DNA of 33,601 bases from Saccharofermentans sp. (GTDB taxonomy: Bacteria; Bacillota; Clostridia; Saccharofermentanales; Saccharofermentanaceae), in contig JAIKWL010000062.1 of assembly GCA_024684815.1 (NCBI GenBank), forward strand, positions 1-33,601, given 5' to 3'. This document shows, one piece after another, positions 13,734-18,394 of this stretch (position 1 is the first letter of the stretch; the number at the start of each line of letters is the position of its first letter). Under the pieces are notes generated by a model that saw only the letters and a list, made by a program, of their open reading frames with translations, was not told where the DNA came from and searched no databases. The position numbers and the translations under genes were made by a program.

Positions 13734-14240
13734 ATGGCTGATTGCAAAGTTCTGGTGGTGATGGGTTCCGATTCCGATTTTCCCGTAATGGAGGGGTGCT
13801 TCAAGATGCTGAATAAGTTCGGTGTCGGATTCAAAGCTACTGTGGCATCAGCTCACAGGACTCCCGACAAGGCCATGTCTCTTGCCAGAAGTGCTGAAGC
13901 TGAAGGCTTCAAGGTCATTATCGCAGCTGCAGGTCTGGCAGCACATTTAGGCGGTGTTCTGGCTGCCAATACCGCTCTTCCCGTAATCGGCGTTCCCTGT
14001 AAGGGAGGAGCTCTTGCCGGCGTGGATGCTCTTTATGCTACAGTTCAGATGCCTACCGGCATTCCGGTGGCAACGGTAGCCATAGACGGCGGATCCAATG
14101 CAGCGATCCTCGCATGCCAGATGCTCGCTATCAGTGATCCTGAACTTATGCAGAAGATCAAGGATTACAAGGCAGGCCTTGCAGATTCAGTTGAGGAGAG
14201 AGATCAGAGACTTCAGCAGAAGATCGCTGAGATGAATTGA
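13734..14240 (+). CDS. purE: N5-carboxyaminoimidazole ribonucleotide mutase
   Basis: PurE class I converts N5-CAIR to CAIR in de novo purine synthesis. The 168-residue length is typical. The signatures are near the N-terminus (MGSDSDFPVMEGC) and at ASAHRTPDKA, which carries the conserved active-site His. AAAGLAAHLGGVLAANT and GVPCKGGALAGVDALYATVQMP match the substrate-binding loops. No purK is present beside it, so N5-CAIR must be supplied from elsewhere. AAGGCAGG lies upstream of the ATG. A 60-base gap separates it from purF. Confidence 0.96.
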   Translation: MADCKVLVVMGSDSDFPVMEGCFKMLNKFGVGFKATVASAHRTPDKAMSLARSAEAEGFKVIIAAAGLAAHLGGVLAANTALPVIGVPCKGGALAGVDALYATVQMPTGIPVATVAIDGGSNAAILACQMLAISDPELMQKIKDYKAGLADSVEERDQRLQQKIAEMN

Positions 14241-14300
14241 GAGTTATTGGATTTGATCCACTGACATAAACAAACACAAGTAAAGGATGGCACCAGGTAA

Positions 14301-15707
14301 ATGAGCGGAGTATTCGGATGTTATGACATCAAGGGAAGCAAACAGGATGTAACAAGAGATACTTATTACGGTATTTTCTCTTTGCAGCACAGAGGACAGG
14401 AATCCTGCGGTATAGCAGTTAATGACGACGGTTCTTTCCTGGTGCACAAGGCAGCAGGTCTTGTCACCGATGTTTTCGATGAGGTTACTTTATCTGCACT
14501 GACCGGCACATGCGCCATCGGACATGCGAGAGGCGGATCTCCCAGAGAAAACGGTACTGATGCCATTCAGCCTATTTCTATCAAGTCCCGTGTGGGCAAT
14601 ATCGCTCTTACTTCCGATTCGGTCATCATGAATGCGAACAGGATAAGAGACGAGCTCAAGGATCAGGGCGCTATCTTCCAGACGAATACAGATTCTGAGA
14701 TCATCCTTTCATTATTCTCACGCAACAGGATCAGGACAGAGGACTGCGAGCATGCCATTCTTGAGACAATGAAGGAGATCCATGGCGTTTATGCAATGAT
14801 CTTCATGACAGAAGACAAGCTCATCGGTGTAAGGGATCCCTATGGATTAAGACCTTTGATCCTCGGGAAACTGGGTGACAAGTATTATATCTCCTCCGAA
14901 TCCTGCGCTCTCGACGCTATCGGATGCGAGACTGTAAGGGATTTCCTGCCGGGTGAGATCATCACGATCTCCAGAGACGGAATGAGTTCTCTCCGGTATG
15001 ATCCTTCTGTTGAGAAGAAAGACGGAAAGGTATGCGTTTTCGAGTATGTATATGTTGCAAGACCCGACTCCGTCATCGATAAGATGTCCATATTCGATTC
15101 AAGATACAGAGTAGGTATGGCTCTTGCAAAAGAAAGCCCTGCTGATGTCGATCTCGTTATCGGCGCACCTGACTCCGGTAATGCTGCCGCTGAGGGATTT
15201 GCAGCCGGTCTCGGCGCACCTTACGGTTCCGGACTTTTGAAGAACAGATATGTCGGAAGAACATTCATCAAGAGCACACAGCAGCAGAGAGAGCTTGCAG
15301 TCAGAATGAAGTTTGCGGCATTGAGGACTGCGATCAAGGATAAGAAGATCGCCATAGTCGATGACTCACTTGTAAGAGGTACAACGACAAAGCACATCAT
15401 CTCATTCCTGCGTGAAAACGGTGCCAAGGAAGTTCATGTAAGACTGGCTTCCCCGCCGGTCAAGTTCGGCTGCTGCTACGGAGTCAACGCTTCTTCAGAG
15501 ACAGAGCTTCCTGCAAGTTCCAAGAGCATTGAAGAGATCAGAGACATGATCGATGCTGATTCTCTCGCATATATCAGTCTTGAATCACTCAGAGCTTCTC
15601 TCAACACGATCGACTGCGGCGTATGCTCAGCATGCTTCGACGGCAACTTTATTGCAGGCAAGCCTGAGGATGATGAGGAATCGATCCACAAAATAAAGTA
15701 CAATTGA
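14301..15707 (+). CDS. purF: Amidophosphoribosyltransferase with degenerate glutaminase site
   Basis: PurF makes phosphoribosylamine from PRPP and glutamine. The 468-residue product has the class II glutamine amidotransferase (Ntn) domain (about 1-230) followed by the phosphoribosyltransferase domain with PDSGNAAAEGF, KNRYVGRTFI and the PRPP loop VDDSLVRGTT. The four Fe-S cysteines of the Bacillus-type enzyme have counterparts: KVCVFEYVY, FGCCYG and CGVCSAC. The glutaminase part is abnormal: the Cys that should follow Met is Ser (MSGVFG rather than MCGVFG); HVRYxT reads HARGGS; and the oxyanion-hole motif HNGN reads SDSV (LTSDSVIMNA). The Arg of HxR and the Asp of TNTDSE are kept. A TAA directly precedes the ATG, so no longer propeptide form exists. 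It may use free ammonia or a partner glutaminase, or Ser may act as nucleophile. Confidence 0.92.
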   Translation: MSGVFGCYDIKGSKQDVTRDTYYGIFSLQHRGQESCGIAVNDDGSFLVHKAAGLVTDVFDEVTLSALTGTCAIGHARGGSPRENGTDAIQPISIKSRVGNIALTSDSVIMNANRIRDELKDQGAIFQTNTDSEIILSLFSRNRIRTEDCEHAILETMKEIHGVYAMIFMTEDKLIGVRDPYGLRPLILGKLGDKYYISSESCALDAIGCETVRDFLPGEIITISRDGMSSLRYDPSVEKKDGKVCVFEYVYVARPDSVIDKMSIFDSRYRVGMALAKESPADVDLVIGAPDSGNAAAEGFAAGLGAPYGSGLLKNRYVGRTFIKSTQQQRELAVRMKFAALRTAIKDKKIAIVDDSLVRGTTTKHIISFLRENGAKEVHVRLASPPVKFGCCYGVNASSETELPASSKSIEEIRDMIDADSLAYISLESLRASLNTIDCGVCSACFDGNFIAGKPEDDEESIHKIKYN

Positions 15708-15817: not shown

Positions 15818-16438
15818 ATGAAGATTGCAGTATTTGTGTCAGGTGGCGGAACAAATCTTCAGGCCATCATAGACAATACTAGGGATGGTATCTTAAAGGA
15901 TATAGAGATCGTGCTAGTACTTTCTTCATCAAAAGATGCATATGCGCTTGAGAGAGCCGCAAACAACGGTATAAAGTCTGTCGTGGTATCGAAGAAAGAC
16001 TTTGATTCCGTTGAAGCATGGGACGATGCCGTTGTTTCAGCGGTCGATGAGTCCGGTGCTGAACTTATCGTCCTTGCCGGATACCTGTCTTTGATGGGAC
16101 CCAAGGTCGTATCCAAGTATTCCAACCGCATTATCAATATCCATCCGGCGCTTATTCCTTCATTCTGCGGAGCAGGCATGTACGGAATAAGGCCTCATCA
16201 GGCTGCGCTTGCAAAGGGCGTAAAGGTATCGGGTGCCACGGTCCACTTCGTAAATGAGAATTATGATGAGGGCCCGATCCTTCTGCAAAAGGCAGTGGAC
16301 GTCTTAGCTGACGATACTCCTGAAACGTTGCAGAGAAGGATAATGGAGCAGTGTGAGTGGAAGATCTTGCCGCAGGCTATAAGACTTATCGCTGACGGCA
16401 AAGTCGAGATAAAGGACAACATCTGCTACATCAAATAA
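15818..16438 (+). CDS. purN: Phosphoribosylglycinamide formyltransferase
   Basis: PurN transfers a formyl group from 10-formyl-tetrahydrofolate to GAR. The 206-residue product has the N-terminal VSGGGTNLQAIID loop. The catalytic Asn and His are in INIHPALIPSF and the catalytic Asp in NENYDEGPIL. The insertion CGAGMYGIRPHQAAL corresponds to the substrate loop, slightly longer than in E. coli as in many Clostridia. AGGAG lies 9 bases before the ATG. It follows purF after the 110-base gap that contains the nested hairpin. Confidence 0.96.
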   Translation: MKIAVFVSGGGTNLQAIIDNTRDGILKDIEIVLVLSSSKDAYALERAANNGIKSVVVSKKDFDSVEAWDDAVVSAVDESGAELIVLAGYLSLMGPKVVSKYSNRIINIHPALIPSFCGAGMYGIRPHQAALAKGVKVSGATVHFVNENYDEGPILLQKAVDVLADDTPETLQRRIMEQCEWKILPQAIRLIADGKVEIKDNICYIK

Positions 16439-16466: not shown

Positions 16467-17183
16467 ATGATCACACAGAACCTTAGCAAGATCTTGACAG
16501 AGAATGCTTATCCCGGAAGAGGAATCGTAATCGGTAAGTCCGATGACGGCAAGTATGCAGTTACTGCTTACTTCATCATGGGAAGAAGCGTTAACTCAAG
16601 GAACAGAGTTTTCACGGCTACTGAAGACGGAATCAAGACAGAGGCTTTTGATCCTTCGCTTCTTACTGATCCGCACCTTATCATCTATTCGCCGGTAAGA
16701 GTTCTTGGCAACAAGACCATCGTTACAAACGGTGATCAGACTGATACTATCTATGAGCTCATGGACAAGCAGATGACTTTCGAGCAGTCATTAAGAGGCA
16801 GAGAGTTTGAAGACGATGCTCCGAATTACACTCCGAGGATCTCAGGCATTATGCACGTTGAGAACGGCACATATAACTTTGCTATGTCTATCCTTAAGAG
16901 TGATGACGGTGATCCTGATTCCTGCGAGCGCCACACATTCACATACACAAATCCCAAGGCCGGTATCGGCAGATTCATCCATACTTATATGGGTGACGGC
17001 AGTCCTTTGCCGTCTTTCGAAGGCGAGCCTGAGAAGGTTGAGCTCTCGGGTGATATTGATACTTTCACAAACGAAGTTTGGACCAGCCTTAACGAGGACA
17101 ACAAGGTGTCTCTTTTCGTGCGCTACATCGACATAGCTACAGGCACTTATGAGACCAGGATTGTAAACAAGAACGTCAAATAA
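16467..17183 (+). CDS. purO: PurO-type IMP cyclohydrolase
   Basis: The 238-residue product matches the PurO-like IMP cyclohydrolase family, which closes FAICAR to IMP, the last step of the pathway. In most bacteria this activity is the N-terminal half of bifunctional PurH; here it is separate and unrelated in fold, as in archaea and many Clostridia. Family-like segments are NAYPGRGIVIG, YFIMGRSVNSRNRVF, YSPVRVLGN and PNYTPRISGI. A strong GGAGG site lies upstream of the ATG. It sits 29 bases before the AICAR transformylase gene, so the two together replace bifunctional PurH. The call rests on motif memory and context. Confidence 0.85.
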   Translation: MITQNLSKILTENAYPGRGIVIGKSDDGKYAVTAYFIMGRSVNSRNRVFTATEDGIKTEAFDPSLLTDPHLIIYSPVRVLGNKTIVTNGDQTDTIYELMDKQMTFEQSLRGREFEDDAPNYTPRISGIMHVENGTYNFAMSILKSDDGDPDSCERHTFTYTNPKAGIGRFIHTYMGDGSPLPSFEGEPEKVELSGDIDTFTNEVWTSLNEDNKVSLFVRYIDIATGTYETRIVNKNVK

Positions 17184-17212: not shown

Positions 17213-18394
17213 ATGTCTAACGAGATGCAACTCAAGTACGGATGCAACCCTAATCAGAAGCCTTCCAGGATCTTCATGAAGGACGGATCAGAGCTTCCCA
17301 TCGAGGTTTTGAACGGCAAACCCGGTTATATTAACCTTCTGGACGCTTTTAACGGCTGGCAGCTTGTTAAGGAATTGAAGGAGGCAACAGGACTTCCTGC
17401 AGCTACATCCTTCAAGCACGTTTCACCTGCAGGCGCTGCAGTAGGCAAGCCCCTCTCTGAGACAGAAGCAAAGATCTACTTCGTTGACGATTTGGGCGAC
17501 CTTTCTCCCATCGCATGTGCTTACGCAAGAGCAAGAGGTGCAGACAGAATGTCTTCATACGGTGACTTCACGGCTCTTTCCGATACATGCGACGCCATCA
17601 CGGCTACAATGCTCGCAAGGGAAGTATCTGACGGCATCATCGCTCCCGACTATACACCTGAAGCTCTTGAGATCCTTAAGACAAAGAGAAAGGGAACATA
17701 TAACGTTATCAAGATCGACGCATCCTATAAGCCTGCTCCGATCGAGACAAAGGAAGTATACGGCGTTACTTTCGAGCAGGGAAGAAACGAGTTCGAGATC
17801 AATCACGCTCTCCTGGATAATATCGTTACCGACAATAAGGACATCCCTGAGGATAAGAAGATCGACCTCTTGATCTCTCTTATCACATTGAAGTACACAC
17901 AGTCCAACTCCGTCTGCTATGTTAAGGATGGTCAGGCTATCGGTATCGGCGCAGGCCAGCAGTCCAGGATCCACTGCACAAGACTTGCAGGCAACAAGGC
18001 TGATAACTGGTGGCTCAGACAGAGTCCTCAGGTATTGGGTCTCCAGTTCGTTGACGATATCCGCCGTCCCGACAGAGACAACGCTATCGACGTTTATATC
18101 TCTGACGAGTATGAGGATGTTCTTGCTGAAGGCACATGGCAGAATATCTTCAAGGTTAAGCCTGAGGTATTCACAAGAGAAGAGAAGAAGGCATGGCTTG
18201 CCAAGAACGACAACGTTGCTCTCGGTTCAGACGCATTCTTCCCCTTCGGCGACAATATCGAGCGTGCTCATAAGAGCGGCGTCAAGTACATCGCTGAACC
18301 CGGCGGATCTATCCGTGACGACCATGTCATCATGACATGCAACAAGTACGGCATTGCTATGGCATTCACCGGAATGAGACTGTTCCACCATTAA
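17213..18394 (+). CDS. purH: AICAR transformylase (stand-alone)
   Basis: The 393-residue product corresponds to the C-terminal AICAR formyltransferase domain of PurH, with no IMP cyclohydrolase domain. It adds the formyl group from 10-formyl-tetrahydrofolate to AICAR, giving FAICAR for the neighbouring cyclohydrolase. Visible marks are LKYGCNPNQKPSR at the start, the catalytic Lys68-His69 pair in FKHVSPAGAA, YTQSNSVCYVKDGQ and GAGQQSRIHCTRLAG, and SDAFFPFGDNIE near the end. A bifunctional PurH would be about 510-530 residues. AAGGAG precedes the ATG. A strong terminator follows, making this the last gene of the purine transcript. Confidence 0.93.
   Translation: MSNEMQLKYGCNPNQKPSRIFMKDGSELPIEVLNGKPGYINLLDAFNGWQLVKELKEATGLPAATSFKHVSPAGAAVGKPLSETEAKIYFVDDLGDLSPIACAYARARGADRMSSYGDFTALSDTCDAITATMLAREVSDGIIAPDYTPEALEILKTKRKGTYNVIKIDASYKPAPIETKEVYGVTFEQGRNEFEINHALLDNIVTDNKDIPEDKKIDLLISLITLKYTQSNSVCYVKDGQAIGIGAGQQSRIHCTRLAGNKADNWWLRQSPQVLGLQFVDDIRRPDRDNAIDVYISDEYEDVLAEGTWQNIFKVKPEVFTREEKKAWLAKNDNVALGSDAFFPFGDNIERAHKSGVKYIAEPGGSIRDDHVIMTCNKYGIAMAFTGMRLFHH

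Follow-up and report, generated by a model that had tools for sequence, protein, structure and literature searches.

The canonical PurF enzymes of Bacillus subtilis (1gph, 1ao0) and Escherichia coli (1ecf) share with the protein described here the fold, most of the PRPP half and a place in a purine operon. Tyr74 and Ile335 of PurF form part of the ammonia-channel wall, according to the available text of PMC7953260. Cys-less forms have been described in archaea, where the available portion of PMC3261824 reports, for Crenarchaeota, a Cys-less paralogue (PurF′) that accompanies a normal PurF and, for Methanocorpusculum, a protein with Ser (Mlab_0150), and suggests that PurF′ depends on ammonia. 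The same source, citing Mei and Zalkin (1989), states that replacing Cys1 of E. coli PurF by Ala or Ser leaves no detectable activity with glutamine, the use of ammonia being preserved; unlike the protein studied here, these are laboratory-made mutants whose oxyanion hole and channel are intact. PMC3261824, which concerns archaea, was the sole match in our search of the open PMC literature, which found no bacterial glutaminase-dead PurF in the text available.

The window analyzed here (33,601 nucleotides, contig JAIKWL010000062.1 of Saccharofermentans sp.) contains a purine operon in the order purE-F-N-O-H, the purF product of which differs from canonical PurF in that the Cys, the Asn-Gly pair and the channel Tyr are replaced and there is no propeptide. 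Its features are the following:

13734..14240, + strand: purE (TIGR01162).
14298..14300, + strand: in-frame TAA abutting the ATG of purF, from reading the upstream frame; no propeptide or hidden Cys.
14301..15707, + strand: predicted glutaminase-dead PurF, 468 aa (ORF list; 441.3 bits with the curated PurF equivalog model TIGR01134, cut-off 350).
14304..14306, + strand: Ser2 (AGC), replacing the nucleophile Cys1 of E. coli numbering (alignment).
14520..14540, + strand: glutamine-loop motif G-H75-A-R77-G-G-S, Arg retained, channel-wall Tyr74 replaced by Gly.
14613..14624, + strand: S105-D106-S107-V108 instead of HNGN, which holds the oxyanion-hole residues Asn101-Gly102 (alignment).
14691..14693, + strand: D131, equivalent to E. 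coli Asp127, the Asp of TNTDSE; present in 35/35 dead copies.
15033..15635, + strand: four conserved Cys (C245, C391, C442 and C445), putative Fe-S ligands.
15240..15311, + strand: PRTase flexible loop K314-K337; tested positions match E. coli except K344 (Leu).
15351..15386, + strand: PRPP loop AIVDDSLVRGTT, intact in the alignment.
15818..16438, + strand: purN (TIGR00639).
16467..17183, + strand: PurO-like IMP cyclohydrolase (TIGR01922 and NF003167, both below cut-off).
17213..18394, + strand: AICAR formyltransferase of the PRK07106 type (NF005492).

The matches of the PurO-like product to the PurO models were weak, with 45–51 bits against cut-offs of 150–158.

Alignment of the window PurF identified the changes C1→S, Y74→G, H100→S, N101→D, G102→S and N103→V, in E. 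coli numbering, with retention of R26, H71, R73 and D127. It also bore out what the sequence-only reading had claimed for this protein, namely that Met is followed by Ser, that HNGN has become SDSV and HVRYxT has become HARGGS, and that the Asp of TNTDSE, the PRPP loop and four Cys persist; these are putative Fe-S ligands, by analogy with PurF of B. subtilis. Of the features expected in class II (Ntn) amidotransferases, the N-terminal Cys and the oxyanion Asn-Gly are replaced by Ser and Asp-Ser, respectively, and the glutamine-binding Arg and Asp (R73, D127) are present. The best solved relative was B. subtilis PurF 1ao0, matched over its full length (phmmer E 2.3e-117). An AlphaFold2 model built with 31 aligned sequences (mean pLDDT 83.7, pTM 0.84; low confidence in residues 313–336, in the flexible loop, and 459–468) has an N-terminal domain with the predicted Ntn fold, and Foldseek placed it on 1gph with a TM-score of 0.88 by query length as well as on the glutaminase domain of GlmS (1xff). 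A hidden Cys or an alternative start was discarded: TAA immediately precedes the ATG, which leaves no room for an N-terminal extension bearing a Cys, and among 69 dead copies a short upstream open frame with a Cys appeared in three, none of which had the motif after the Cys. The sequence thus predicts no glutamine-dependent synthesis of 5-phosphoribosylamine (PRA; EC 2.4.2.14) by the window PurF.

We searched 59 genomes, including that of the window (G000), of which 35 belong to its genus, mostly gut bins, and 24 are relatives from the same order. The dead PurF was found in 34 of the 35 genus genomes, in 35 copies, being absent only from G013. Ser2 is present in all 35 copies, always encoded by AGC or AGT, codons that differ by one base from the TGC/TGT used in the sister group described below; Arg31 and Asp131 are likewise invariant, Asp106 occurs in 34 and Ser107 in 34 (Thr once). 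Sharing of Ser2 (35/35) and of the xDSx motif (34/35) by relatives speaks against a local error, as does the presence of the same replacements in AB4001 and YAD3003, records whose titles lack "MAG" or "uncultured"; this genus-wide recurrence rules out sequencing or assembly error. The claim that the Arg of HxR is kept holds for the window protein and fails for the genus, with 28 Arg and 7 Lys at position 77. Position 78, equivalent to Tyr74, is Gly in 34 copies and Thr in one, although a second alignment places a gap there in six, and the channel residue Ile335 is present in all 35. On the PRTase side, 19 of 24 examined positions are as in E. coli in the 35 copies; the departures are at 303, 305, 307, 344 and 369, of which 305 and 344, but not 303 and 369, also differ from E. 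coli in the canonical copies of the genus. Three Cys-bearing rows appear as gaps in the alignment because their starts were chosen too late; ECG lies upstream in all three. Loss of the Cys and of the oxyanion pair is a fixed trait of the genus. Among the 80 PurF loci listed in a wider scan for the dead form outside the order, 34 are of the dead form and 11 of the sister type, and each of the 35 others has Cys.

The pattern of change was examined by comparing 60 Cys-bearing PurFs, as live reference, with 56 distinct dead copies (69 before deduplication). Of 120 sites at which a single residue occurs in ≥95 % of the live set, only four were refixed, at the same threshold, in the dead set: Cys1 to Ser, Asn101 to Asp, Gly102 to Ser and Ala136 to Ser, so that three of the four are the glutaminase nucleophile and the oxyanion pair. 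At five more sites (76, 115, 264, 345 and 390, in window numbering) the majority residue of the dead copies differs without being fixed. In 11 genomes with both genes, dN/dS for the glutaminase domain was 0.035 in dead and 0.037 in canonical copies, and for the PRTase domain 0.041 and 0.029, respectively; these are ratios of sums over 55 pairs (54 for the canonical PRTase), and the median dS of 0.8–1.4 makes them rough. Additionally, seven pocket residues of our own choosing had a conservation of 0.96, against a domain mean of 0.82, a value reached by 1.3 % of random sets. By these sequence measures, the glutaminase domain of the dead PurF is under strong purifying selection. Since the glutamine anchors are kept and the pocket set is conserved above the domain mean, the pocket may still bind something.

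Gene decay, or an error in the sequence, is accordingly a most improbable account of these replacements. It could draw on the copy of G021, which has changed further (H75→T, D106→C), and on the disappearance of the gene from G013, but the replacements are identical across 34 genomes, the frames are open with a dN/dS of about 0.035, and the switch is concentrated on catalytic sites. Decay can therefore be discarded for the genus as a whole, even if the G021 copy has altered further. This agrees with the judgement of the sequence-only reading that an operon-borne gene whose remainder is intact is not simply decaying.

The dead purF is flanked by purE, purN and purO at all 69 loci, and by the AICAR formyltransferase gene at the 34 named loci (34/34). 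PurFs of the sister type, and related ones from the order, also lie between purE and purN wherever the stretch covers both, and the same placement occurs in several more distant Clostridia (e.g., L122–L125, L127 and L129), for which reason the dead form probably occupies the ancestral operon slot. No stand-alone glutaminase gene was recognized by eye among the ORFs beside the operon, and a riboswitch search of the window and of six stretches surrounding purF genes gave no hit above the Rfam gathering cut-offs.

A second full PurF, which the sequence-only reading had proposed to look for, does exist in the genome of the window, which is 76 % complete: it is a canonical copy (C80:11396-12724, - strand) with the motifs MAIHEEC^GIFG, HVRYST and HNGN. 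The GlmS of this genome starts normally, with MCGIVG, so that GlmS at least has kept its nucleophile. A series of paralogs (L073:294-11377, in G000:C80) adjoins this canonical purF; judged by eye, they are transglutaminase-like proteins and probably secreted. Canonical PurF was found in 33 of the 35 genus genomes, whole in 32 and cut by a contig end in G034, and the dead form is therefore not a replacement for it in the genus. Of the 19 canonical genes of the genus for which we read some 3 kb of flank or more, as far as contig ends permitted, none neighbors purE, purN or purO (copies with short flanks, such as that of G010, were excluded from this count), and dead and canonical genes were not adjacent in the loci read.

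In a tree of 135 PurFs, built by a quick method with SH-aLRT support, the 56 rows of dead copies group in a single clade (support 100), which joins (support 99) a sister group of 8 rows (support 91) from Scatonaster and other gut Clostridia. This sister group retains Cys1, Arg73, Asn101, Gly102 and Asp127 in 9/9 proteins but has lost the channel-wall Tyr74 (8 Thr, 1 Phe) as well as His100; L116, cut by a contig end, and L128, with a split frame, are excluded from these counts. L003 was dropped, being GlmS. The next branches are PurFs from the order with Cys, Tyr74 and Asn-Gly, His100 being replaced in 4/7. The order thus holds a graded series, from Cys with the channel Tyr, through Cys without this Tyr, to Ser with new oxyanion residues. 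The canonical copies form a separate lineage common to the genus and the sister group, present in 9 of 10 genomes of the latter. The sister-type PurF L128 (G068:C102:15851-17207) is split in two frames, in a genome that also has a canonical PurF, so that either the operonic copy has been lost or the assembly is at fault.

Five genomes (G002, G009, G018, G026 and G029) keep the dead copy, but the only canonical PurF found in them groups with those of Lachnospiraceae, and they have no purF within 1.5 kb of its usual neighbor. In G006 the canonical purF has been relocated from its usual place. G013 retains purE-purN-purO-purH′, from which the dead purF is cleanly absent, with a canonical PurF beside carA; the dead gene can thus be lost. 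The canonical purF of G013 (L066, G013:C13), situated directly before carA, is Lachnospiraceae-like. Conversely, we searched for members of the genus with dead PurF as their sole PurF and could establish none. No canonical PurF was found in G021 and G016. G021 (94 % complete) has purD, purE, purN, purO, purH′, purL and purM, and the dead PurF is the only one found, although its contig C124 stops 53 bases past the match to the radical-SAM gene, which is the neighbor of canonical purF in relatives. In G016 the canonical purF is absent from its usual site, where the next gene abuts the radical-SAM gene, but this genome is 64 % complete, with no match to purM or purL and no purD above the cut-off. 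As a separate observation, of 10 genus genomes, three (G000, G020 and G021) have a purM above the family cut-off, and six genomes at least 97 % complete (G005, G001, G017, G013, G007 and G012), with purD and purL present, yielded only weaker purM-like matches; either purM is divergent in the genus or the step is done by another enzyme.

Among the 24 relatives from the order, outside the genus, 11 have a Cys form, six lack a PurF match and seven have only Cys-less forms: G043 and G052 (genus g9), G044, G047 and G050 (g5), and G039 and G048 (g6). All seven are 92–96 % complete and have a single PurF match and purD. The g9 protein has Ser at the nucleophile, HCHY and MNG, retaining Asn-Gly, Tyr74 and Asp127, whereas that of g5 has Ser, HVKY and LDG, lacks the Asp127 segment and carries Lys in the PRPP loop at the position of E. 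coli R371. Like the window PurF, these proteins (L220 and L224 from g9; L221–L223 from g5) combine Ser at the nucleophile position with a purine operon, and in g5 the oxyanion Asn is likewise replaced by Asp; they differ in being the sole PurF found and in belonging to other branches. The operons are purE-purF-purM-purN/purD fusion-purL in G052 and purC (below cut-off)-purE-purF-purM-purN-purD in G047; by eye, the operons of G044, G050 and G043 are similar, and model scans there covered purF in G044 and G050 as well as purL in G044. Like the window PurF, the G052 protein exceeds the TIGR01134 cut-off. In the tree, the g9 form falls among Oscillospiraceae-like PurFs (support 95), apart from the window clade, and the g5 form is a long branch whose place is unsure. 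Ser thus arose in place of Cys at least twice, and probably three times, in the order. We found no canonical PurF in G043, G052, G044, G047 and G050 that could regulate the Ser form or supply it with ammonia, and the g9 and g5 forms therefore probably make PRA on their own. They are nevertheless different proteins from the window PurF, that of g9 having kept Asn-Gly, Tyr74 and Asp127 and that of g5 departing at the Asp127 segment and at R371.

The remaining Cys-less homologs are of another kind, sharing with the window PurF the absence of the nucleophile Cys. These MGG-type proteins (L048–L052, from G051, G048, G039, G013 and G024) start with MGG, once MSG, form a distant clade and lack R73 and D127 as well; the two that were scanned scored below the purF cut-off, and we found no purE, purN or purO near the five loci. 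Of 299 genomes sampled from the phylum, 16 contain a match of this type at E ≤ 1e-100, and an MGG/MSG-type protein is the sole PurF found in G039 and G048, both with purD. Three further observations were made: G038 (genus g5, 93 % complete) has purD and no PurF match, owing either to an assembly gap or to another source of PRA; L138 has the Cys with eroded glutamine motifs (HVNYTR, ANNG); and L219, from G041, has the Cys with HVRYAG, CSNG, and NCE instead of DSE.

We infer the retained activity of the dead PurF and its nitrogen source from these sequence comparisons, and the reading we hold to be fairly likely is that it is an ammonia-dependent PRPP aminotransferase producing PRA. Its N-terminal domain would no longer hydrolyze glutamine, and the phosphoribosyltransferase half would form PRA from PRPP and free ammonia (NH3/NH4+). 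This is favored because the PRPP half is largely intact and because Ser forms were found alone in sister genera; it was the finding of genomes in the order in which a Cys-less form is the only PurF found that raised our assessment from barely better than even. The operon copy would work on ammonia and the standalone canonical copy on glutamine. Operonic and standalone PurF would have first coexisted, the operonic copy losing the channel-wall Tyr first, as in the sister lineage, and the nucleophile and oxyanion hole later, while Cys would have been replaced by Ser separately at least once more, and probably twice, in genera of the order where the Ser form is the sole PurF found. Ammonia is abundant in the rumen. 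It is also mentioned in the available text of papers that deal with rumen Saccharofermentans.

The retention of R26 and D127 in all 35 copies, and of R73 or a Lys, is a counterpoint to ammonia dependence, as are the canonical PurF in most genomes of the genus, the clean loss of the dead gene from G013, the five PRTase-side departures from E. coli and the differences between the window PurF and the g9 and g5 forms. We consider it possible, albeit doubtful, that the glutaminase pocket has been repurposed. With Ser2, Asp106 and Ser107 fixed, and with Arg31, Arg/Lys77 and Asp131 still in place, it would be a non-hydrolyzing site that either responds to glutamine or glutamate as signals of nitrogen status or captures ammonium, which would reach the PRPP site by a channel opened by Tyr74→Gly. 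A regulatory or structural role, in which the dead PurF would form hetero-oligomers with canonical PurF and tune its activity or feedback, is a serious rival because of the canonical paralog, which accompanies it in 33/35 genomes of the genus and is also there in 9/10 of the sister lineage, and it would suit a glutaminase domain under strong selection throughout, with persistent pocket conservation. We nevertheless judge this role unlikely: such a subunit would not need the 19 PRTase positions kept as in E. coli, the two genes are not neighbors in the loci read and, for other Ser forms of the order, we found no canonical PurF in the same genome. A tightly co-evolved heteromer is further disfavored because the canonical PurF is Lachnospiraceae-like, and so of a different lineage, in five genomes with the dead copy.

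The sequence-only reading had left three options, ammonia, a separate glutaminase or Ser chemistry, and the genomes with only Cys-less forms bring support to the first. A supply of ammonia by a separate glutaminase, for which the simplest candidate is canonical PurF within a mixed oligomer, would be consistent with the co-occurrence of both proteins and with the invariant Ile335 of the channel, but appears quite improbable given the loss of the channel-wall Tyr74, the failure to recognize, by eye, a stand-alone glutaminase gene next to the operon, the change of lineage of the canonical partner and the five genomes in which a Ser form occurs with no canonical PurF found. Ser-type Ntn hydrolases exist, and Ser2 might act as the nucleophile of a slow glutaminase or of an amidase on another substrate. 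That Ser, and not Ala or Gly, is fixed in the genus and recurs in g9 and g5 would fit such chemistry, as would the retention of R26, R73 or Lys, and D127 in the genus and of the oxyanion Asn-Gly in g9. We still regard it as very improbable, somewhat more so than a borrowed supply, because both oxyanion residues of the window protein are replaced, one by an acidic Asp, and the E. coli Cys1→Ser enzyme is without detectable glutamine activity in the available account (PMC3261824).

As with the archaeal proteins, a Cys-less paralog exists beside canonical PurF in the window's genus, and Mlab_0150 also has Ser. However, many archaeal PurF′ have Ala or Val, the available text of PMC3261824 does not mention oxyanion changes, and our comparison with them is by description only; unlike what is described there, the dead copy here lies in the operon with the canonical gene outside it, and related genera have Ser forms with no canonical PurF found. 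The tree places the dead clade within the Clostridial PurFs, making an origin independent of archaeal PurF′ likely. Cys-less PurF is thus already known in archaea, and the form described here is a new, recurrent bacterial variant.

The curated TIGR01134 model labels the dead PurF as glutamine-using, and standard annotation therefore misses the change. If the pocket has been repurposed, the recurrence in g5 of Cys→Ser together with Asn→Asp would represent convergence on an ammonium-using PurF, which would then be a recurrent bacterial solution for ammonia-rich habitats. If the dead PurF runs on ammonia, metabolic reconstructions of gut Clostridia would be assigning the wrong nitrogen donor to this enzyme. 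The graded series and the repeated losses in the order show how an amidotransferase sheds its glutaminase, and the ammonia-dependent synthesis of PRA proposed for archaeal PurF′ becomes testable in bacterial enzymes.
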